NCBI GenBank assembly: GCA_035498035.1
Contig: DATKAN010000022.1
Coordinates: 1-40,748 of the forward strand
DNA length: 40,748 bases
Direction: 5' to 3'
Source: Nitrospiria bacterium
Lineage (GTDB): Bacteria > Nitrospirota > Nitrospiria > JACQBZ01
The position numbers and the translations under genes were made by a program. Below the pieces are notes generated by a model that saw nothing but the letters and a program-made list of their open reading frames with translations, was not told the origin of the DNA and did no database searches. Below, in pieces: positions 11,548 through 27,768 of this stretch (position 1 is the first letter of the stretch; each line of letters starts with the position of its first letter).

Positions 11548-14469
11548 CTAAAATGCGAATCCCAGTGTAAAGTGAAACTCACCCGGGCTCTCCTTGACCA
11601 CGACGGGGCAGGCCGGGCAGAGGTTTTTTTCACGGTTCAGTTTATATCCGTAATCGAGCCGCAAGGGCCCCGCCGGGGTCCCGTACCATAGGCCCGCCCC
11701 GATGGTCGACTTGATCAGGTTGATGTCGACCTGGCTCGACAGACGGAAGACATTCCCCCGGTCGTTGAAGATCACGAGGCCCAAGTTGCCCGGCAAAAAA
11801 ATCCGGATTTCGCCGTTGAACAGCAGCATGGCGTTTCCGCCGCTGAAGTCGACCCCGGAATTGGTGTCGTTGGGAATGATCGTCGCGCAGTTTTCTCCGT
11901 TGTGACACCGTGTCGGAATGATGCCCAGCTCGTCTTGTTGATAGCCGCGAACGCTGGTCCGTCCGCCGAGGAAAAACCGTTCGTTGGGGGGCAGCAGACC
12001 GGTGGACTGGGAATCCCCCGATGTGGACTCCGTTTTTGTCACCCCGAAACGATTCGAGACCCCCGCGCGGGCCGAAACCGCGACCACCATCCAACGCATG
12101 AGGGGATAGTACCAGCTGGACTGGACGGTCGCTTTGATAAACTGGACCTCGGACCCCAGACTCGTGGCGGCGTCCTGAAAAGCCACCCCGTTGATGAATC
12201 CCGTGGTCGGACTGAAGGGGTTGTCGCGGGTATCCCAGTACAAGGCCGGGGTCAGACTGCCGATGGTGGTATGCTGATCCTCCGGTAGTAATTCAACGCC
12301 ATTCGTGTAAGTATCGACATCAAATTGGTATTGAAGGCTGCCTTTGACCGTGGGAGTCAGATTTTTTCCCAGCCCTGCGGTCGCTCCGGTCGTCGTCAGG
12401 GTGTAAGAGAGGCGTTCCTGGGTCTGTTCATAGCCGACCAGACGACCCTCCAGCTGATATCCGAGAAGCCAGGGCTCCAGATAGGTGGCGGAAGCCGAGC
12501 GAGAGATGGAACTGCCCTCGGCCCGTAGACTGAGTGATTGGCCCGTGCCCCAAAGGTTCCGGTGGGTCCACTGGGCAAACCCTCGAAGATGTTCCACATC
12601 GGCATAGCCCACTCCAAGATCCAGCGTCCTCGTGGGATTTTCCCGGACGGTCAGCCGCATGTCCTTCACCGTATCCTTGGTTTCGGGATTGAGGGGCGTG
12701 ACGGGTTCGAAACGAACGTTGCCGAGGTAGCCCAGTTGTATAATCCGCCGGCGAGTAATCTGGATGCGGCTTTCGTCATACGGGTCGCCCGGTTTCACAT
12801 CGAGTTCCCGGAGGATAACCTTGTCTTTGGTATAGGTGTTTCCGCTCAAAAATATCCGCCCGATCCGAACCTGCGGATTTTCCGAAATCCGGAACCGGAT
12901 CCCGACCTGCGTGCGATCCTTGGAAAAATCCAGTTCGGGATCCACACGGGCATAGACGTAGCCGCTTTTGTGATAGAGCGCCAGAATTTCTTCCAGATCT
13001 TTCCGGACCGGAATCTCATTGTAGGGCTGCCCCGGACGAAGGTGGATCGTTTTCCGCAGTTGGGCCGGGGCCAAGGCTTGTTGGCCCTCGAATTGGATGT
13101 CGGTGATGAGCGTTCGCGGACCCTCGGCGATGGCGAAAATGAGATAGGCGACTGTCCTGGCCTCGTTATATTCCACCCGGGGTTCGACCTTAATTTCCTG
13201 GAAACCCTGTTCGTGATACCCCGCCAGGAGGATTTTGGCGTCGGAGTCCAGGCGGTCGGGAACCACGGTTCCGCAAAAGAGGGTGTTGCCGGGGCGTGTC
13301 TGGATGAGGTTCTGGAGCTGAAGGGGCGTAAAAAAGGTGTTTCCGAAGAAAAGGACGGTTCGGAGGCAGGCGAAATTTCCCGGGTCGATTTCAAAGACCG
13401 CCTCGATCGTTCCTTCGTTCGGAAGCTCCCGTTGCGTGTAGTCCACCTTGACAAAGGGAAAACCCTTGGATCGATAAAAATCCTCCAGGCGGTCCGCGCT
13501 CGCGCGAAAGACCTGATCGTCGTAACTGTGTTCCTCTTCGAAAAGCAGCAGGGGCGTCAGCTGGTTATCCGGGAAGGGACCGTTTCCCTCGAACCGCACC
13601 CTCAGTCTTGTTCCGGCTTCGATAGGGACCGTGATGGTCACCTCGTCGGTGGCCTCCTTGTATTGGATTTCGGGGGGACCGACGGAGGATTTTAAATAGC
13701 CGTTGGCATGATAGAAGCTCTGCAAACGCGCCAAATCTTCTTCCAGAATATCGGCCTGGTAAAATTCACCGCCGGTGGATCGGATGGTCTTTAACCAGAG
13801 TTGGAAATTGGAATACGCGGTGTCGCCGACGAATTTTGTCTCGCGAATTTTCGCGCGGGTTCCCTCGTTGACCCGCACCGTCACCTGGGCCTTGTTCGTT
13901 CCCGGTGTCTGAGAAACGTCGCTGTCGATTTTGGCCCGAAAATATCCCTTGCGCTGGAGAAAATTCAGGAGATTGGCGATGGCGGCCCGCCATCGTTCTT
14001 GCGTGAATTCCTCGCCGATTTGAAGGCCCATCGCCTCCTTGAGGGTTCGGGTCCAAAAGACACGATTTCCCTTGATTTGAAGATCGGACAGGAAGGTCTT
14101 CTCCGTGAACTGATATACGACGGCCACGCCCCCCTCGATGGGGTTGACTTCCACCGCGACATCGGTGAACAGCCCGGTTGAGTACAGGGAATTCAAACTC
14201 TGTCGGATCATCCGGCTGGAGTAGGGAATCCCGGTATGGATTCCCGTCAGCCGGCTGAGGGCCTCAAGCGTCATGCCCACTCTGGAATTGACCTCCAGGG
14301 ATAGAATCGTCTGGCCCTCGAAGGATTGGGCGGTGGCGGGCGCGGGGCGGACGACCGAAAGCCATGCTCCGACGGCCCCGATCAAAAGACACCAATGCCA
14401 AAATCTAAAGCCATCTCGTTGTCCCCGCCCGGTTTGTCCCGTCCGTGTCCGCAATCGTCCTCGAATCAT
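11548..14469 (-). CDS. bamA: Outer-membrane assembly protein, BamA/TamA (Omp85) family
   Basis: An outer-membrane insertase of 973 residues. The signal sequence (CLLIGAVGAWLSVVRPAPATA) precedes a long series of POTRA domains (about residues 50-570), recognisable by recurring forms such as RIGRIFLSGNTYTKDKVILR and SDLQIKGNRVFWTRTLKEAM. The Omp85 barrel occupies the rest, with the conserved loop-6 motif in GGRTSVRGYQQDELG (about residue 841) and a terminal Phe for recognition by the assembly machinery. It is longer than typical BamA (about 800) and has more POTRAs than TamA (three). TamB-like gene adjacency favours a TamA role, POTRA number favours BamA; without the rest of the genome both remain open. 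Its ATG abuts a dispersed repeat. Confidence 0.88.
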   Translation of the reverse strand: MIRGRLRTRTGQTGRGQRDGFRFWHWCLLIGAVGAWLSVVRPAPATAQSFEGQTILSLEVNSRVGMTLEALSRLTGIHTGIPYSSRMIRQSLNSLYSTGLFTDVAVEVNPIEGGVAVVYQFTEKTFLSDLQIKGNRVFWTRTLKEAMGLQIGEEFTQERWRAAIANLLNFLQRKGYFRAKIDSDVSQTPGTNKAQVTVRVNEGTRAKIRETKFVGDTAYSNFQLWLKTIRSTGGEFYQADILEEDLARLQSFYHANGYLKSSVGPPEIQYKEATDEVTITVPIEAGTRLRVRFEGNGPFPDNQLTPLLLFEEEHSYDDQVFRASADRLEDFYRSKGFPFVKVDYTQRELPNEGTIEAVFEIDPGNFACLRTVLFFGNTFFTPLQLQNLIQTRPGNTLFCGTVVPDRLDSDAKILLAGYHEQGFQEIKVEPRVEYNEARTVAYLIFAIAEGPRTLITDIQFEGQQALAPAQLRKTIHLRPGQPYNEIPVRKDLEEILALYHKSGYVYARVDPELDFSKDRTQVGIRFRISENPQVRIGRIFLSGNTYTKDKVILRELDVKPGDPYDESRIQITRRRIIQLGYLGNVRFEPVTPLNPETKDTVKDMRLTVRENPTRTLDLGVGYADVEHLRGFAQWTHRNLWGTGQSLSLRAEGSSISRSASATYLEPWLLGYQLEGRLVGYEQTQERLSYTLTTTGATAGLGKNLTPTVKGSLQYQFDVDTYTNGVELLPEDQHTTIGSLTPALYWDTRDNPFSPTTGFINGVAFQDAATSLGSEVQFIKATVQSSWYYPLMRWMVVAVSARAGVSNRFGVTKTESTSGDSQSTGLLPPNERFFLGGRTSVRGYQQDELGIIPTRCHNGENCATIIPNDTNSGVDFSGGNAMLLFNGEIRIFLPGNLGLVIFNDRGNVFRLSSQVDINLIKSTIGAGLWYGTPAGPLRLDYGYKLNREKNLCPACPVVVKESPGEFHFTLGFAF

Positions 14470-14555
14470 AGGGGCTCAGGTCGCCCCCTCCACCCGTCAA
14501 GCGGCTCGATCGAAGTCGCCGAAGTCCGGATGGACCCTCCCCCTCTTTCGAGCAT
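14469..14555 (+). repeat. Dispersed TAGGGGCT repeat (copy B)
   Basis: TAGGGGCTCAGGTCGCCCCC begins at 14469 and is followed by CAAGCGGCTCGATCGAAGTC and a CCTCCCCCTC tract. It occupies the 100-base gap between the TamB-like and BamA-like genes. The T at 14469 is the complement of the A of the bamA-like start codon, so repeat and gene share a base. Confidence 0.7.
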
Positions 14556-14569
14556 TTCTTGTTGAGGAT

Positions 14570-17500
14570 TTACCGGAACTCGAAATGTAATTTTAAATCT
14601 CCTCCCGTATGGCCGAGTTCGTCCCGTTGACCGAGAATCGAGACCGTCTTACTCAGGGTATATTCCAACTGAATGATCTGTCCCTGGGAGGGGTCCATCG
14701 GGATGGCGTACGTCATAATCAGTTTGTCCTCCAGCAATTGTTGGGAGACCGAGACCATGGGCACGCTTCCCGATTTATTCGAAGAGTAATACGGGTTTAC
14801 CACGATGCGATCGATTCCCGTCAACGATTCGACCTGCTCCGAGATGATACTTTCGATCGCGGCCGTGGCTGCGATCGAGGATGCCTCGGAAGGGCCCTTC
14901 CCTTTTGAAGCGGCCTCGACGTCCCTGCAAAGCCGACGGTAAGATAACAAACAGAGGATGTCGTTTTGATCCGATACCGATGGGTTGGAGGTTAGCGTGA
15001 GGTCGAGTTTGTCGGCCGGCCCGACCAGGCTCAGCTCGATGTCGTAGGTCGTCACCCGTGTGGTGGCCCGCACGTCCACAACGGGTCGGATCTGTTCCGG
15101 GTTGATGAAATCGACCGTGCCTGAAACGATCTTGAATTCATTTTGTTGGAACGAAAACGATCCGCCCTTGGCCTCCACTCGACCCAGAAGGCTCGGGCGG
15201 TCGACGGTACCCTTGAGCACCAGATCGATCTCCAGCGGCAGGTTGGCCAGATTGTTCTTGACCCAAATATTGTTCTTCCCCTGGATTTGAATGTTCAGGG
15301 CCGTCTCTTTGAGCCACCACGGCAGCGGCGTGGATTCCTTCGTATTGGGCCTGACCAGGGCCAGGACCCAGGTCTGCCAGTCCAAGCGCCTTTCGTAATT
15401 GGCCCGGCGGATTTCAACCTCTCCGGAAAGCGACTGGACCCTTGTGTCGCTTTGGAAGAACACGGATGCGTCGACCACCGACGAGAATCCCTTGAAGGGA
15501 CTGATCTGGCTGCCCGTCATCTCCAGGTTCAGGGAGTAGCGCGAGGGAACGAAACGGACCAGATCAATCCGGCCGGCTGCCTGAAGTTTTCCGCCGCCAA
15601 ACTCCGCATCAAATGATTCGAGGAGCACCTGGCGCTCGTTGAATGCAAAATTCACGGAGGTCATGTCGAGGGCCTGCCCCAGCGAGGCGCTCTTCACCAC
15701 CCCGTCATGGATGGTCAACCCGCCCCGGATTTTGGGATCCTCCCACTGATCGGTGATCTGAAGCGCCAGATAGGCGAATCCTTTCGCATAGGTGATTTCC
15801 TTCGTGAAAATCCGGAACAGATCCAGGTCGGCTTCCCCGTTGATAAAAAAGTTGTAGCTTTTGAACAGCGCCAGATCGCCGGATACCGCCAAGGAGGTCC
15901 CGGGGCCTTTGAGCTTGAACGATTGGATCGATACGTTCCCCTGGCGGAGTTCGAGCTGGATGTCGCCCTCGTTTGTGACGACGTAATTCGACACATCGAC
16001 CGTCAGCGCGGTCAAATGGATTGTAGCCTCCGCCGCGTTCAACGTTTCCGGTCCCGCGCCTCCGGGCGGATCGATCTGGCCGCTGGCCATCAGGGTTCCG
16101 CTGGTCGTGAAACGGTTCAAGGCCGTCAGATTGGGAACGTCGGATCCGAACCACGGCTTCAGGTCCGCATCGTCGAGGGAAATATTGATCCGGTAGGGAT
16201 GGCCGGGCGCCCATTCCATTTCCGCGGAACCCTTGACCCCCCTGGACAATTGAAAGTCGGCCGATAACCGATGGTCCTTTATTTCGGCCGAAAGATTTCC
16301 GGGGCCCAGGGACTGATTCTGATAGACGACGTCCAAAAAAGAAATTTGGGTTTCAATCCGGGGATTGAGGAAGGGACCGGAGCCGGCGATCCGGCCGGTC
16401 AGCGGCCCCCGGAAAACCGCGAGGGTTTTCACCTCCGGCTGGAAATCCTCCAGTCGGGCGTGCGCGGTTTCGGCCGAAAATTCAAATTCGCCATTAAATC
16501 CGATCGAACCGTTTCCGGTCAGCTCGGTTTCGCCCCGACGGGCGCGGACCTCCTTGAAGACGATCCGGTCGCGGTTGAGAATCAGCGTGACGGTTCCATT
16601 GTCAATCGGCCGACCGTAGATCGAGCCGGAACCGGCCTGAAACCGGGCCTCGAGCCGGAATTGCGACGGGGTCCCCTTGACGGTGAGATCGCCCGTCGCG
16701 GGAACATCGATCGGCATTTCCTTTGTAAAAAGGGAGACGACTTCGCGAGGATTGCCTTGACGAATTTTAGCCGACAGGTCGAAGAAGGGGTGCGACGGGC
16801 CCTCCGCCGGCCGGTCCAATGAAACGAGCCCCTTGATCTCGTAGCGGGCCTGATTCTCTTGAACGACGGCGCGTTTGAATCGGATCGTCCGGTTCCGATA
16901 GATCAGATCCGAATCGGCCGCTTCAAAATGCCGTCCTCGTAAGCGCACGTTGCGCAGGTGGCCGTCCCCTTTGAAGACAGGATCTTTCAGTGTTCCCGTC
17001 AAACTTCCGGAAAGTTTGAGGCTTCCTTCTATCATAGGGGCTTGCGTCGCCCCCTCCGCCGGCAAAGCCGGATGGGGTCCTTCCCTTTCCCTCGCCTGGC
17101 CCGCGGCGACGGTGGTAGGGGAGGCGGCCAGGATGGCCAGCTCGGACAGGTCGGCGCTTTCCAACGTCGCCTCAAGCGCGATCGACCCATCGGCGCGAAT
17201 CGATCCTTCGACCGTCAGGGAGGACCGACCCGTGCGAAGGGTCGTTTTATCGAGAGACAGGTCCCCGGAACCGATCCGAAATTCGGTCGAAGCTTCGCGG
17301 AGCTGGGCCAGCAGTCCCATCATTCCGGTCTCCCGGCCGGACGGGGTTGTTCCCGGAGGCGGGACGGACGGGCCTTCTTCCGATTTGGTCAGGCGGAGCC
17401 GGCCCTTTCCGGAAATGTCTTTCGGATCGAAATGCATCTCTTTGATCCGTCCCTCCAGATCGACGGCCCCTTCAAGCCGTTGCGCGGCCGGATAGGATTC

Positions 17501-18616
17501 GAGGCCCAGAATGGGAAGAAATCCGGATGGAGTTAACCCGGTGAATTGAAGCGACACCCTGTACGGGAGGGGACCGCCGTCCCCCGAGAGCCCGGCCACG
17601 GACAAGCGGGCCTCCCCGGATATATTTCCGCCGAAGACGTCGGCCGAGAGATCGGACAATGTGAAGACGCGATCCTGATAAAGGATGACGGTTTTCGCGT
17701 TGCCAACGGATCTTGAAGAAACGGCCCAGTTTGAGATCGAGATGTTGCCCCGGACCGCGGGATCGGATCCGGGCCCGACCAGATGCCCGGTGAATCGAGC
17801 CGCGCCGGTCATCGGGAAGCGCCCGGGAAGAAGGGGATTGAGGTCGCTCAACGGGAAGGCGGCATCCACGGAGAGCGCGAGCCGCGGTTGGGCCGGATTT
17901 TGGACCGTTCCGCTGACGGTGTAGTGGGACGTGGGGTCGGCCAGCTCCAGGGTTTGGATATCCAAAGAATTCGACCGGATGTTGAGTCGGGCCGACATGG
18001 AATCCAGTTTCTTATGGAAGGTGTTGCGGTCCACCGACACGCCCTTTGCGGAAAGGATCACCTGAAAGTTTTCCATCAGGAGGTCCGGGGTGACGGTCCC
18101 TTCCCATTGTGCCAGTTTCAGAAACGGTTCGCCGGAGGGCCCTTGCAATTCAAGGCGGCCGTCCTGAACTTCAATCTGGCGGATGACGAGGGTTAATTTT
18201 TGGGACCCGCCTCCGGGAGAATCCGGGGATCCCTTCGGAAGATTGGGATGGATCGGAAGGACGGAATCGCGTCCGACTCGGAGGACGATTTCCGGGCCGA
18301 TCAGGCGGATTTTTTTAATAAAGGTCACTTGAGTCAAAAGAGACCAGGGAGAAATCCAAACCCGGATTCGCTGGACGGCGATGGGGGGACGGCCCGTTTC
18401 AGGAGCGGGCAGCACGACCCCGTCTAAAACCACGGCGACGGGGAGGAGGCCCAGTGTGACGCGGCGCACCGTGACGGGCGTTCCGGTCAGACGCTGAATC
18501 TGCGACTCCGCAAAACGCGTCAGCGGCTCCGAGAATAATCCGCCGCGCAAAAGAAGATGGAGCGACAGGACCAGCAGGATGACGACCACCAGGGCGGCGA
18601 TGGACTTTTTATACAA
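14570..18616 (-). CDS. tamB: Translocation and assembly module protein TamB-like (AsmA/DUF490)
   Basis: A 1348-residue envelope protein anchored by one N-terminal helix (SIAALVVVILLVLSLHLLLR), with a very long beta-rich periplasmic body. The C-terminal region carries the TamB/DUF490 signature (SQISPFKGFSSVVDASVFF, FINPEQIRPVVDVRATTRV, ILCLLSYRRLCRD, LDKLIMTYAIPMDPSQGQII shape). TamB-type proteins bridge inner and outer membranes and take part in phospholipid transport and outer-membrane protein insertion. TTG at 18614-18616 is the start, with AAGGAG seven bases ahead. An AT-poor stretch at residues about 505-528 is encoded by a dispersed repeat that keeps the frame open. It is the promoter-proximal gene of the minus-strand block. 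Confidence 0.88.
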   Translation of the reverse strand: MYKKSIAALVVVILLVLSLHLLLRGGLFSEPLTRFAESQIQRLTGTPVTVRRVTLGLLPVAVVLDGVVLPAPETGRPPIAVQRIRVWISPWSLLTQVTFIKKIRLIGPEIVLRVGRDSVLPIHPNLPKGSPDSPGGGSQKLTLVIRQIEVQDGRLELQGPSGEPFLKLAQWEGTVTPDLLMENFQVILSAKGVSVDRNTFHKKLDSMSARLNIRSNSLDIQTLELADPTSHYTVSGTVQNPAQPRLALSVDAAFPLSDLNPLLPGRFPMTGAARFTGHLVGPGSDPAVRGNISISNWAVSSRSVGNAKTVILYQDRVFTLSDLSADVFGGNISGEARLSVAGLSGDGGPLPYRVSLQFTGLTPSGFLPILGLESYPAAQRLEGAVDLEGRIKEMHFDPKDISGKGRLRLTKSEEGPSVPPPGTTPSGRETGMMGLLAQLREASTEFRIGSGDLSLDKTTLRTGRSSLTVEGSIRADGSIALEATLESADLSELAILAASPTTVAAGQAREREGPHPALPAEGATQAPMIEGSLKLSGSLTGTLKDPVFKGDGHLRNVRLRGRHFEAADSDLIYRNRTIRFKRAVVQENQARYEIKGLVSLDRPAEGPSHPFFDLSAKIRQGNPREVVSLFTKEMPIDVPATGDLTVKGTPSQFRLEARFQAGSGSIYGRPIDNGTVTLILNRDRIVFKEVRARRGETELTGNGSIGFNGEFEFSAETAHARLEDFQPEVKTLAVFRGPLTGRIAGSGPFLNPRIETQISFLDVVYQNQSLGPGNLSAEIKDHRLSADFQLSRGVKGSAEMEWAPGHPYRINISLDDADLKPWFGSDVPNLTALNRFTTSGTLMASGQIDPPGGAGPETLNAAEATIHLTALTVDVSNYVVTNEGDIQLELRQGNVSIQSFKLKGPGTSLAVSGDLALFKSYNFFINGEADLDLFRIFTKEITYAKGFAYLALQITDQWEDPKIRGGLTIHDGVVKSASLGQALDMTSVNFAFNERQVLLESFDAEFGGGKLQAAGRIDLVRFVPSRYSLNLEMTGSQISPFKGFSSVVDASVFFQSDTRVQSLSGEVEIRRANYERRLDWQTWVLALVRPNTKESTPLPWWLKETALNIQIQGKNNIWVKNNLANLPLEIDLVLKGTVDRPSLLGRVEAKGGSFSFQQNEFKIVSGTVDFINPEQIRPVVDVRATTRVTTYDIELSLVGPADKLDLTLTSNPSVSDQNDILCLLSYRRLCRDVEAASKGKGPSEASSIAATAAIESIISEQVESLTGIDRIVVNPYYSSNKSGSVPMVSVSQQLLEDKLIMTYAIPMDPSQGQIIQLEYTLSKTVSILGQRDELGHTGGDLKLHFEFR
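17034..17104 (+). repeat. Dispersed TAGGGGCT repeat inside the tamB-like gene (copy C)
   Basis: TAGGGGCTTGCGTCGCCCCC, then a CCGGC-AAA-GCCGG hairpin and a CTCGCCTGGCCCGC tail, clearly matching copies A1 and G. On the minus strand it is translated in frame as part of residues about 505-528 (REREGPHPALPAEGATQAP). Confidence 0.75.
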
Positions 18617-20872: not shown

Positions 20873-20892
20873 AGGGAAGCGGCTTGCGATCG

Positions 20893-20930
20893 CGTCCATC
20901 TTGTCGCGCCGCAGGGTGGACGTTTTTTTT
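20893..20930 (+). terminator. Intrinsic terminator after moaDE
   Basis: An 11-bp stem, CGTCCATCTTG (20893-20903) with CAGGGTGGACG (20912-20922), has an eight-base loop and two G-U pairs, and is followed by eight T residues (20923-20930). It ends the mazG-moaC-moaDE unit. Confidence 0.85.
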
Positions 20931-20976: not shown

Positions 20977-23274
20977 TTGCGAGCGTTGATTGTGTGGGTC
21001 GTTTTGATTTTCTCGGCCGCTTCCGCGGCCGCTTCGCCCGCGTATACCCCGGGCGAGATCCTTGTGAAATTCAAACCCGGAACCCCGCCGGAGACGATCG
21101 AGAGCGTCGGCGCCCGGTTGAAGACCTTTGTGAAAAGAAAATCGGAGCTCACGGGGGTCCGGCTCCTTTCCCTCCCGTCCGGCCTCTCGGTGGAAGAGGC
21201 CCTCAAGGCCTACCGCGGCCAGCCGGACGTGCTCTACGCCGAACCGAACTACATCCGGCGGGCCTCGGACACCCTTCCCAACGATGTCCAGTTGGATGAG
21301 CAGTGGGGTCTTCATAACACCGGCCAGGCCATCCATGCCACCCCCAATTTCCACGGCAGCCCGGGCGCCGACATCGATGCGCCGTTGGCCTGGGACATCA
21401 CCACCGGCTCCCCTTCGATGGTGATCGCGGTGATCGACAGCGGGGTGGATTATACCCATACGGATTTCAGGACCAGTACCGCGTCCAATATCTGGGCCAA
21501 TGCCGGGGATACCTGGACAAACCCCATCACCCCATCCACCGGAAACGGAAAGGACGACGACGGGAACGGCTATACGGATGATTTCCACGGTTGGAATTTC
21601 GTCGGAAATCAGACCTGTACAGTGGATGCGAGCGGCGCCTGCAACTGCACGCAGGACGACCCGGTCGGGAACAACGATCCGATGGATGATTTCGGACACG
21701 GTACCCATGTGGCCGGGATTATTGCAGCCCGGGGGAACAATGGCACGGGAATTACGGGTGTTCTGTGGAACGCGCAGATCATGCCGTTGAAGATTCTCGA
21801 TGCGAACGGCTGCGGTTCGGTGGGGGATGAAATTCAGGCCATCGATTACGCGATCAACAACGGCGCGAGCATCATCAATGCCAGTTTCGGAGGTCCCGGT
21901 TTGTCCTCGACCGAAGAGGACGCGATCCGCGCCGCCGGCACCGCCGGGATCCTTTTCGTGGCCGCGGCCGGGAACGACGGAACGAACAACGACGACTTTC
22001 CGATCTACCCGGCCAGCTTCAATCTCCCCAACGTGATCTCGGTGGCGGCCACCGACGCCAATGATCGCCTGTCCCCCATTTCCAATTACGGCAAAAACCG
22101 TGTCGATATCGGCGCGCCCGGGGAATGCGTATATTCCACCACGCCGGTGACCGTCGTTAAACTGACGAACGTCATCAGCTGTTTAAATACGCCGATCACG
22201 ACGGTCCACGCCTACATGACCGGAACCTCCATGGCCGCGCCGCACGTCGCGGGCGCGGCCGGGCTGCTCCTGTCCCAGGATCCATCGCTCACGCCGGAGG
22301 AGGTTCGGGCCGCGATCCTCCTGACCGCCGATCCCCTCGACGGCCTGAAGGGCCGCGTGGCCTCGTCCGGAAGGCTGAACGCCTCCAGCGCGTTGCGCCG
22401 GGTGAAGGGATCGGGTCTCATCGGGGGACACGGAGGATGCGGCTCTCCGATCGGTGCCATCCGCGCATCCGATTCCGATACGGTATCGCCCGTTCAGGGT
22501 CTCCTGTTTCTTCTTGTCCTGTTCTGGCCGCTCGTCCTTCCGATTCTGAGGAGGAAACTCGGAAAACATCCGGCCTTGGGCCGGACGATCATCGGACGCG
22601 GTTCCGGAATGACCTCTGCGACGGGACTGCTGGCCCTGATCGTTCTGTGGCCCCAAACGGCGGCGGCCGCCGGGGTGGACGCCCCGTTCCAGCCGGTGCA
22701 TTCCTTGGCCTTAAAGGTGGGTTACCATCGGTATAATTCAAGCGACTATTTCGACAGCAATTCCGGCCTTGTCTCCCCCGGCGACCTGGCCGGCTTGAGC
22801 GGGGAATTGGAATACGATTGGCGATGGGAAAGAGAAAAAAGTCTGACCGTCACGGCCGGCCAGTACCGAAGCGAAACGGATTTCAAGAATGTTTGTTGCG
22901 GCAGCCTCCAATTTTCAACGCAATACCTCCTCCTGACCCCGAAATACCATTTCGCAATCCGCCTCCGACCCCAAAAAAATCCGGCCGAGGAACCCTTGGA
23001 GGGGTACCTGGGGGGCGGAATCGGTTTTTACCATTTTACCCGCGAGGTCAGCGGGACCGTTCAAGATCATCTTTCCTCGAACGTGTTGGGTCTGCACGCC
23101 CTCGCCGGCATCGAGGCGCCCTTGATTAAACGGTTTTCGGTGTTCCTGGAGGCCCGGTATGCCGTGGCCAAGGTGAAAAGCGCCGATCCCTTCGACGATT
23201 CGCTGGATGTGGGCGGCATGAACTATTCCCTGGGCATCCGTTGGCAGTTCCTGCCGGCCCATAAACCGTCCTAA
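20977..23274 (+). CDS. Subtilase (S8) fused to an outer-membrane beta-barrel
   Basis: A 765-residue exported protein. The signal peptide (LRALIVWVVLIFSAASAAA) is followed by an inhibitor-like propeptide (GEILVKFKPGTPPE to VLYAEPNYI) and a subtilisin domain with the full triad: Asp154 in VIDSGVDY, His241 in GHGTHVAG, Ser418 in GTSMAAPHVAG, and oxyanion Asn333 in AAAGNDG. Near residues 485-530 come GGHGGCGSPIG, a hydrophobic helix and LRRK, like a C-terminal sorting signal. The frame then runs through a second signal-peptide-like segment (Met545, GLLALIVLWPQTAAAA) into about 200 residues of barrel-like strands. TTG at 20977 has GGAGGAG nine bases ahead; an in-frame TTG at 20884 precedes the terminator and is rejected. 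Substrate unknown. Confidence 0.82.
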   Translation: MRALIVWVVLIFSAASAAASPAYTPGEILVKFKPGTPPETIESVGARLKTFVKRKSELTGVRLLSLPSGLSVEEALKAYRGQPDVLYAEPNYIRRASDTLPNDVQLDEQWGLHNTGQAIHATPNFHGSPGADIDAPLAWDITTGSPSMVIAVIDSGVDYTHTDFRTSTASNIWANAGDTWTNPITPSTGNGKDDDGNGYTDDFHGWNFVGNQTCTVDASGACNCTQDDPVGNNDPMDDFGHGTHVAGIIAARGNNGTGITGVLWNAQIMPLKILDANGCGSVGDEIQAIDYAINNGASIINASFGGPGLSSTEEDAIRAAGTAGILFVAAAGNDGTNNDDFPIYPASFNLPNVISVAATDANDRLSPISNYGKNRVDIGAPGECVYSTTPVTVVKLTNVISCLNTPITTVHAYMTGTSMAAPHVAGAAGLLLSQDPSLTPEEVRAAILLTADPLDGLKGRVASSGRLNASSALRRVKGSGLIGGHGGCGSPIGAIRASDSDTVSPVQGLLFLLVLFWPLVLPILRRKLGKHPALGRTIIGRGSGMTSATGLLALIVLWPQTAAAAGVDAPFQPVHSLALKVGYHRYNSSDYFDSNSGLVSPGDLAGLSGELEYDWRWEREKSLTVTAGQYRSETDFKNVCCGSLQFSTQYLLLTPKYHFAIRLRPQKNPAEEPLEGYLGGGIGFYHFTREVSGTVQDHLSSNVLGLHALAGIEAPLIKRFSVFLEARYAVAKVKSADPFDDSLDVGGMNYSLGIRWQFLPAHKPS

Positions 23275-25554: not shown

Positions 25555-27768
25555 TTGTTGGGGCCTCGGCCTTGCGACCCGCATCGGTATTTTCAAAGGA
25601 TCGGCGCGGCCTCCGCGCTGTGGATTGCCCTCCTGATAGCCTCCTCAACCTTTGGGGAATCCCCCCAGACGGTTCCCCCTTCCTCCGATCCTATCCTAAA
25701 GAGCAAGGAACCGATCGAGATCACGGCCGACCAGATCCAGTATTTGAAGGATTCCGATTTCTACATCGCGGACGGCTCGGTCAACGTGGTACGGGGGGGC
25801 GTCCATCTTCAAGCCGATCATGTCACGCTGGACCACGGAACCGGGCAGGTCAAGGCCGCCGGACATGCCGTCCTGCGCGACGGGGATGACGTCGTTTCCG
25901 GGGAGGAGCTCGATTACAATTTCAATACCAAAAAGGGCACGGTCCTTCCCGGGAAATTGTTTATCGAGAAGGATAATTATCATGTCGATGCCGACCAAAT
26001 GGATAAAACGGGAGAGAATCATTATGATTTGAAGGCCTGGTCCCTGACCTCCTGCGACACGCAAGACCGAGAGGCCCCTCTCTGGCGATTCCGCGGACAG
26101 ACCGCCCGTCTGGATGTGGGGCATACGCTGGTGGCTCATAATGTGATCCTCTACGTCAAAGACGTCCCGGTCCTGTACACGCCCTATCTGATGTTTCCGG
26201 CCGGCACGGAGCGGCAGAGCGGTTTCCTTCCGACACGGTTCGGCTACAACACCACGGACGGATTGATCGTCGATCAGGATCTCTACTGGGCGATCAGTCC
26301 CAGCCAGGATATGACACTTACGCTGGACTACCGAAGCATCCGGGGAACCGGGTTGGGCCTGGAGTATCGTTATCGGCTCAGCCGGACTTCCGAGGGAGAG
26401 TTGCACTACGCCGTGTTTAACGATCATATCACCGGCGACCTCCGGACCGAGACGGAATTTCAGCACACCCAGCGGTTCACCCCCGATTTCCAGGCCCGGT
26501 TGAATGTTCACCTGGTCAGCGACATCAATCAATTTCGGGACCTCAGCACTTCGACATCGGAACGGACCCAGCCAACCATTCAGTCGAACTTTGTAATCTT
26601 TAGGCGGTGGGACAATCAAGAGCTTTATCTCAAGGCCCTGGTGACGAAGGACCTCGTCACGGAAAGCAATACCACCCTCCAGGTTCTTCCCGAACTGGGT
26701 TATTCATTACAGGAATACAGGCTGGGGGATTCGCCCTTGTATCTGGGCTTGGATGCGAAGGCCGACAATTTCTGGCGGGAACATGAAGATCCTGCGGCCG
26801 GATTGATTCGGGCCCAACGCCTCGACGTTTTTCCGCGTGTATGGACGCGGCTCGATCTCGGCGGCCTGGTCCTGACCCCGCGCGCCGGTTACCGGGAAAC
26901 CTGGTACAGCCGCGACCTCGTATCGGATTCCCCGACGCAGCGGGGGGTCGAGGTCCTCGATCTGGGAGCCAACACCCGGGTCTACAAGGCTTTTGAGTCC
27001 TCGGGGCCCCGTCAGCTCGTTCATTACATCGAGCCGGCCGCCGTCTACGACTACGTCCCCTTTGTGGATCAAACCCGCTTGCCCCACTTCGATGATATCG
27101 ATCAGTTGCCCCGAAAAAACGATGTGACCTATTCCCTGACGAACCGGTTGGTCTTGGAGGACCATTCCGATCCCGGAAAAACCTCCGCGCGCGAACTGAT
27201 TTTCTGGAAGCTCACGCAGACCTACGATATCCACGCCCGACGGCTTGAGAATGATCCCGGCCCGTCGCGGCCGCTGTCCAATTTGAGATCGGAGTCCATT
27301 ATCCGGCCGTGGACCGGAGCGAGTCTGGACGTGGACACCTTTTATGACCTCTATCAGCGGAAAACGGTCTCATTCAACACCGATCTCCAACTCAAGGGTC
27401 TTCATCCCTGGACGATCGACCTCGGACAGCGTTATACGCGCGAGGGCGCGGTCGCGCCCAACGGGGACCCTTTCAATGCCCTGGCTCCCGGGGATCCGGC
27501 CTTCTGGTACAGCCAGGCGTCCCCGCTCATCCGTTATCTCACAGGGGAAATCCGGATCGATCTGCCCGGGAAAGTCATCCTGTCCGCCAAGACGTACTAC
27601 GACATCCAGGACCGGGTCTTCGCGGAAAACGATTACGGGATGGAATATGTCGGCCAATGTCTGGGTATCGGGGTTTCTTATCAGCGTCTGCCCGATCGAA
27701 CGCAGTTCAATTGGATGATTACGCTCCGCCCGTCCGAGATGTCGCGTGCGAAGTCCTTTATCTTTTAG
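25555..27768 (+). CDS. lptD: LPS-assembly outer-membrane protein LptD
   Basis: Outer-membrane translocon that inserts lipopolysaccharide into the outer leaflet, working with LptE. A hydrophobic leader (ASALWIALLIASSTFG) precedes an OstA/LptA-like jelly roll (EPIEITADQIQYLKDSDFYI, VQADHVT-type strands, GTVLPGKLFIEKDNYHVDAD), then the barrel (PYLMFPAGTERQSGFLPTRF, GLGLEYRYRLS and so on), ending in Phe. Cys residues occur in LTSCDTQD and VGQCLGIG, one before and one late in the barrel, as needed for a bridge between the domains. TTG at 25555 (or the next codon, 25558) follows GAGGGGG. At 737 residues it is a typical size. No lptE is visible nearby. Confidence 0.92.
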   Translation: MLGPRPCDPHRYFQRIGAASALWIALLIASSTFGESPQTVPPSSDPILKSKEPIEITADQIQYLKDSDFYIADGSVNVVRGGVHLQADHVTLDHGTGQVKAAGHAVLRDGDDVVSGEELDYNFNTKKGTVLPGKLFIEKDNYHVDADQMDKTGENHYDLKAWSLTSCDTQDREAPLWRFRGQTARLDVGHTLVAHNVILYVKDVPVLYTPYLMFPAGTERQSGFLPTRFGYNTTDGLIVDQDLYWAISPSQDMTLTLDYRSIRGTGLGLEYRYRLSRTSEGELHYAVFNDHITGDLRTETEFQHTQRFTPDFQARLNVHLVSDINQFRDLSTSTSERTQPTIQSNFVIFRRWDNQELYLKALVTKDLVTESNTTLQVLPELGYSLQEYRLGDSPLYLGLDAKADNFWREHEDPAAGLIRAQRLDVFPRVWTRLDLGGLVLTPRAGYRETWYSRDLVSDSPTQRGVEVLDLGANTRVYKAFESSGPRQLVHYIEPAAVYDYVPFVDQTRLPHFDDIDQLPRKNDVTYSLTNRLVLEDHSDPGKTSARELIFWKLTQTYDIHARRLENDPGPSRPLSNLRSESIIRPWTGASLDVDTFYDLYQRKTVSFNTDLQLKGLHPWTIDLGQRYTREGAVAPNGDPFNALAPGDPAFWYSQASPLIRYLTGEIRIDLPGKVILSAKTYYDIQDRVFAENDYGMEYVGQCLGIGVSYQRLPDRTQFNWMITLRPSEMSRAKSFIF

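Follow-up and report, generated by a model that had tools for sequence, protein, structure and literature searches.

A single gene in the window (the whole 40 748 nt stretch of DNA analysed) joins a subtilase to an outer-membrane beta-barrel in one uninterrupted open reading frame of 765 residues (positions 20977–23274, forward strand), and is probably a natural precursor that is cut into two exported proteins, the subtilase and the barrel. The order of its parts is signal peptide, prodomain, S8 domain, GG-x-GGCG linker, hydrophobic helix (helix 1), basic loop, a second hydrophobic segment (segment 2) and barrel (Table 1). The evidence read directly from the DNA is one frame at one locus in seven genomes, two export signals, and a hydrophobic tail and basic loop between the halves. 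The first-pass annotation had described two exported proteins merged in one frame with a second signal peptide, and this is borne out by sequence and conservation.

Table 1. Features of the fusion gene, and exported proteins of the class in which a tail is followed by a second exported unit
Feature	Position	Strand	Basis or remark
Terminator-like stem-loop with T run, between moaE and fusion gene	20892–20923	+	Consensus scan only
First signal peptide, residues 1–20	20977–21036	+	Sequence; TTG start, GGAGGAGGAG upstream
Fervidolysin-type N-terminal prodomain, residues 14–91	21016–21249	+	Pfam PF22148, 3.3e-16
S8 subtilase domain, residues 148–454	21418–22338	+	Pfam PF00082 (Peptidase_S8), 1.7e-61
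GG-x-GGCG linker with Cys488 (22438–22440)	22402–22488	+	Conserved in all fusions and class-wide tails
Hydrophobic helix 1, residues 505–523 (predicted stop-transfer/tail helix)	22489–22545	+	Best 15-mer mean hydropathy 2.73
Basic loop, residues 525–545 (RRKLGKHPALGRTIIGRGSGM)	22549–22611	+	Six K/R, no D/E; predicted cytoplasmic
Predicted internal signal peptide (segment 2), residues 546–565	22612–22671	+	A-x-A type site
Outer-membrane beta-barrel, eight predicted strands, residues 567–765	22675–23271	+	Pfam, AlphaFold2 model m15070695182d, Foldseek
S8 + barrel; S8 + barrel-OmpA			Fusion family and its paralogue
Fn3 + family-39 glycosidase	L128:6528–8906		Cut AEA|Q
Fn3 + metallophosphoesterase	L187		Cut AGA|A
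Kelch-Fn3 + second domain lacking a Pfam name	L188		Cut ALA|A
Fn3 + Fn3-like lipoprotein	L127:5964–7580		Internal signal ends lipobox-like, SISGC
Tandem G8-domain units, each ending in a tail (f9)	L182, L184–L186; L180		L180 incomplete at contig end

The stem-loop upstream of the gene favours the start at 20977, and a longer frame from 20884 is therefore unlikely. By domain match and Asp/His/Ser triad (D154, H241 and S418), the N-terminal half is classed as an S8 subtilase. The motifs DSG (154), HGTH (241) and GTSMA (418) are all present, and with the PF00082 match they confirm the complete S8 protease reported at first pass; the domain also matches Deseasin MCP-01 (1.4e-62). Full-length AlphaFold2 prediction, run on three sequences, was uninformative (pLDDT 27.9).

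The C-terminal half (residues 545–765) matched Pfam OMP_b-brl (PF13505) at 3.6e-5, just under the cut-off. A barrel-only AlphaFold2 model, of modest confidence (pLDDT 65, pTM 0.60), has eight antiparallel strands, in agreement with the barrel that had been noted after the second signal-like segment. Foldseek with this modest-confidence model found NspA (4.0e-7) and also OmpA, OmpX and OmpW, while the barrel profile matched no sequence in the PDB. Elsewhere in the window, BamA (five POTRA matches) adjoins a 1348-residue TamB-like protein at 11548–18616 on the reverse strand, and LptD is found at 25555–27768 on the strand opposite to BamA; together these make up an outer-membrane biogenesis neighbourhood. 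The presence of BamA and LptD indicates that barrel-insertion machinery exists.

When 58 related genomes were searched at the protein level, the same fusion layout was recovered in all seven genomes of the family, namely the genome of the window and six others, all of them assemblies and separately assembled. Identities to the fusion are 57–71 % for five of the six. In G004, segment 2 and the greater part of the barrel are masked by a run of N, but tail, loop and the end of the barrel are kept. The locus is also shared: tblastn with the neighbouring genes placed the fusion downstream of mazG, moaC and moaD/E in 6/6 other genomes, with accD downstream in the four whose examined stretch shows a match. 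The fusion is confined to this one family in a phylum-wide scan of 396 genomes. A paralogue of 974 residues in the genome of the window (L002:820–3744, contig C4) has the same parts plus a Pal/OmpA peptidoglycan-binding domain; it sits downstream of a LuxR-type regulator. The pN/pS values are 0.36 for the S8 core, 0.44 for helix 1, 0.42 for segment 2 and 0.35 for the barrel, and 0.86 for the loop. These values point to purifying selection on helix 1, segment 2 and barrel, and to a loop that is nearly unconstrained in sequence.

More distant relatives have the corresponding parts in separate genes. In family f36 (L100–L102), the barrel has a gene and a signal peptide of its own, about 50 nt downstream of two subtilases, the first of which bears a prodomain; both have C-terminal helices, and their tails are of the CFI-box-CTERM type. 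In family f6, the barrel gene follows a gene for a propeller lipoprotein, with a 28 nt overlap in the one case read in detail. This gene order indicates that the barrel habitually adjoins exported proteins held at a membrane, and that the fusion joins such a pair. The separate genes could be taken to mean that the joint is an assembly artefact, or that a lost stop codon or a frameshift has merged two genes. However, the same in-frame joint in seven genomes and in the paralogue, under purifying selection, already refutes this explanation, which we regard as virtually certain to be wrong. The first-pass annotation had proposed looking for the same fusion in relatives, and it was found in every other genome of the family at the same locus. 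Of the two observations it had named as speaking together against its reading, separate neighbouring genes do occur in distant relatives, but the other, a missed stop or frameshift, was not found and the frame is conserved.

The GG-C motif, hydrophobic helix, RRK, Met545 and AAAA segment all lie where they had been placed at first pass. Signal-peptide and membrane calls were made from hydropathy, charge and the –3/–1 rule rather than with a trained predictor. The best 15-mer hydropathy of helix 1 ranges from 2.1 to 2.75 across the fusion family (f1), and by this measure helix 1 is predicted to be a good to strong stop-transfer segment. The loop that follows contains between six and nine basic residues and no more than two acidic ones in f1, and its net charge is +4 to +9 in every complete copy. 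For comparison, the mean net charge of 22-residue windows in the exported parts is –0.5, and +6 is reached by 2 % of them. The loop thus obeys the positive-inside rule and, as it varies in sequence yet is always basic, it looks more like a topology signal than like a folded domain. An independent line of evidence is provided by a Bdellovibrio-group homologue (L008:4929–6851), in which S8 domain, helix and RRK are followed by a C-terminal cytosolic PilZ domain, placing the RRK side in the cytoplasm. This homologue is also a possible transmembrane link from protease to c-di-GMP.

Segment 2 has a core of about 10 hydrophobic residues. A helix breaker comes next, in most copies WPQ or WPS, and then an A-x-A type site. 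In the window, the cut is predicted after Ala564 or Ala565, within AAAA at residues 562–565. A site of this type and a basic n-region are found in every complete orthologue and in the paralogue. The predicted cut sites are AAA|A, VTA|T, AAA|V and VSA|Q in f1 and VYA|Q in the paralogue, and the mature ends predicted after the cut are acidic or neutral.

As Met545 precedes a good signal peptide, the barrel might also, or mainly, be made from an internal start, the fusion then being incidental. A perfect Shine–Dalgarno sequence with ATG (AGGAGG-ATG) occurs by chance in the loop of G006, upstream of segment 2, and separate initiation in addition to the long frame is possible there. However, Met545 has no ribosome-binding site upstream in the window, nor is this start conserved. 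G001 lacks any in-frame ATG, GTG or TTG in the stretch from helix 1 to the barrel, which should come from the long frame only there, and the first in-frame start in the paralogue lies inside segment 2, with none before its middle. We consider this explanation unlikely; on the distribution of start codons, the barrel appears to be made from the long frame in at least some members and probably in all.

From these features we infer the processing and localization steps of a precursor as follows. The first signal peptide would take the subtilase through Sec, helix 1 would halt transfer and leave the basic loop in the cytoplasm, and segment 2, acting as an internal signal peptide, would re-open translocation. 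Signal peptidase I would cut the A-x-A site, and the freed barrel would reach the outer membrane by BAM insertion. The subtilase would either stay on the periplasmic side, held by helix 1, or be cut at GGCG by a sorting protease and pass to the surface. One chain would yield equal amounts of both partners.

Cutting appears to be needed on geometric grounds. The periplasm is about 200 angstrom wide, and only about nine residues separate segment 2, or its predicted cut, from the first barrel strand in the model. This is too short to cross the periplasm, so the barrel could not remain linked to an inner-membrane segment. The alternative is that the chain stays whole and that the barrel displays the subtilase at the outer membrane, as in an autotransporter. 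That protease and barrel always share a frame in the fusion family would suit this arrangement, but helix 1 is a strong stop-transfer segment by prediction, an uncut segment 2 would be in the inner membrane those few residues before the first strand, and the A-x-A type site is conserved in every complete copy. Classical (type Va) autotransporters have a C-terminal translocator barrel of 12 strands and no internal hydrophobic segments, whereas the fusion has eight strands, two internal hydrophobic segments and no match to a Pfam autotransporter barrel; the first-pass annotation was right to separate it from this class. We judge display by an uncut chain very unlikely, and this applies equally to the first-pass suggestion of a protease held at the outer membrane by its barrel. 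The two-protein precursor, offered at first pass as the other outcome, is the better-supported branch, given the A-x-A site and basic n-region in the complete copies and the lack of an alternative start in G001, and its processing remains as predicted above.

The tail of the subtilase half is not restricted to the fusion. A search with the fusion tail and then with a broadened profile gave 56 tail matches in 25 of the 197 genomes of the class, nearly all in families f1, f6, f7, f8 and f9. Most of the tails inspected are C-terminal and are carried by unrelated exported proteins, often of fibronectin type. They share the pattern GGCG-[MIV]-[IV]-x-P...P-x-P...A-[DAEG]-[ML], followed by a helix and KK or RR; in the hand-listed set, GC and the basic pair are 35–37 residues apart. 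By its parts (Cys, helix and basic end, on unrelated exported proteins), this is a tail of the general tripartite Cys sorting type. The NCBIfam CTERM models did not match the fusion tail or the class tails even at E ≤ 10, and any overlap of the GGCG tail with previously described Cys-type sorting signals was judged through these models only.

Known sorting enzymes were searched for in the seven fusion genomes. MrtJ was over the cut-off in 0/7, rhombosortase in 2/7, exosortase in 1/7 and any CPBP protease in 5/7, and neither MrtJ, exosortase nor the CPBP proteases track the fusion or the tail. The CTERM-like character ascribed to the tail at first pass therefore holds in that the same tail ends many unrelated exported proteins, but not in terms of a catalogued model or of a known sorting enzyme in 7/7. 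A search for CTERM-processing proteases, also proposed at first pass, did reveal rhombosortase, but over the cut-off in only two of the seven family genomes. Rhombosortase/GlyGly-CTERM was rejected as the processing system because the tail has no CTERM match and five of the seven fusion genomes have no rhombosortase over the cut-off. JDVT-CTERM/MrtJ was rejected for the fusion tail as neither the model nor the enzyme was found, and MYXO-CTERM because its NCBIfam model was unmatched. In the genome of the window, a rhombosortase over the cut-off (L067, contig C11) is directly 3' of the gene for a rhombotarget lipoprotein that ends in GGGG-helix-RKNHN. One GGCG tail (L189, G031:C61) is about 160 nt away from an exosortase gene in the opposite orientation, which may be chance.

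It is quite possible, though somewhat short of probable, that the subtilase is a true sorting substrate, with a protease recognizing GGCG, cutting at or near Cys488 and passing the enzyme to the surface while the barrel is freed separately. This is compatible with the precursor model and adds a second cut. In its favour, the tail recurs as a C-terminal cassette in several families of the class, with the distance from Cys to basic pair nearly fixed. Sister subtilases in the Nitrospira-like family f2 end in a JDVT-CTERM tail (31.3 bits against an NCBIfam cut-off of 27), and in these (L032–L035) MrtJ is encoded at most about 2 kb away on the same contig, which makes the two a likely enzyme–substrate pair as judged from gene proximity. 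Against this, none of the known sorting enzymes searched for is shared by all the fusion genomes, and Cys488 could have another purpose.

In at least 17 of the 56 matches, the tail is internal to the protein and is followed by another signal peptide and another exported domain (hidden by N in G004). The joined proteins (Table 1) are independent domain pairings with the same topology. The internal signal of L127:5964–7580 suggests that its second product is a lipoprotein. The G8-domain proteins (L182, L184, L185, L186 and L180) are very long, with two signal peptide–G8–GFGCG-tail units per frame. We tentatively suggest that secretory polyproteins may occur in several families of the class, with whole exported units, each made up of a signal peptide, a domain and a GGCG tail, lying in one frame and being parted by signal peptidase at the internal signals and by a GGCG-directed sorting protease. 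If so, they would give fixed stoichiometry and co-export, for example of a protease with an outer-membrane barrel.

A chain that is targeted to the membrane and cut into two mature proteins is known from FbcH, the cytochrome b/c1 precursor of Bradyrhizobium; however, FbcH belongs to a respiratory complex and has neither a sorting tail nor a barrel. Among the papers searched, none matched bacterial internal-signal polyproteins. The f2 JDVT-CTERM subtilases resemble the fusion in their homologous S8 domain and prodomain and their GGGC-helix-RRR end, but their tail is at the very C-terminus and is scored by NCBIfam, MrtJ is nearby and there is no barrel. The f36 cluster has a homologous barrel beside subtilases, but in separate genes and with CFI-box-CTERM tails. 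In myxobacteria, TraA, a surface protein with a Cys tail, is paired with TraB, an envelope protein with an OmpA domain, and their ORFs overlap (PMC3325183). Unlike the fusion, these are two ORFs and serve cell–cell recognition, not proteolysis.

The closest precedent is MXAN_5598 of Myxococcus xanthus, which has an internal MYXO-CTERM followed by a beta-barrel and an OmpA domain, for which its authors proposed that two genes had fused and that the N-terminal part is processed, and which was described as a single atypical case (PMC11980579). It shares with the fusion an exported N-terminal protein, an internal tripartite Cys tail and an outer-membrane barrel, and its OmpA domain is also present in the paralogue found here. 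It differs in its N-terminal part, an adhesin rather than a subtilase, in having MYXO-CTERM with a known myxosortase and in belonging to a different phylum, and the likeness noted here is one of architecture. The same logic has thus been published once and is not categorically new. However, the precedent is a single oddity, whereas the design reported here is conserved throughout one family and, in several families, also links exported domains that are unrelated to each other. It reveals a widespread C-terminal tail with a Cys that is not caught by current CTERM models, and the recurrence of the design makes co-export of partners from one message testable as a general route.
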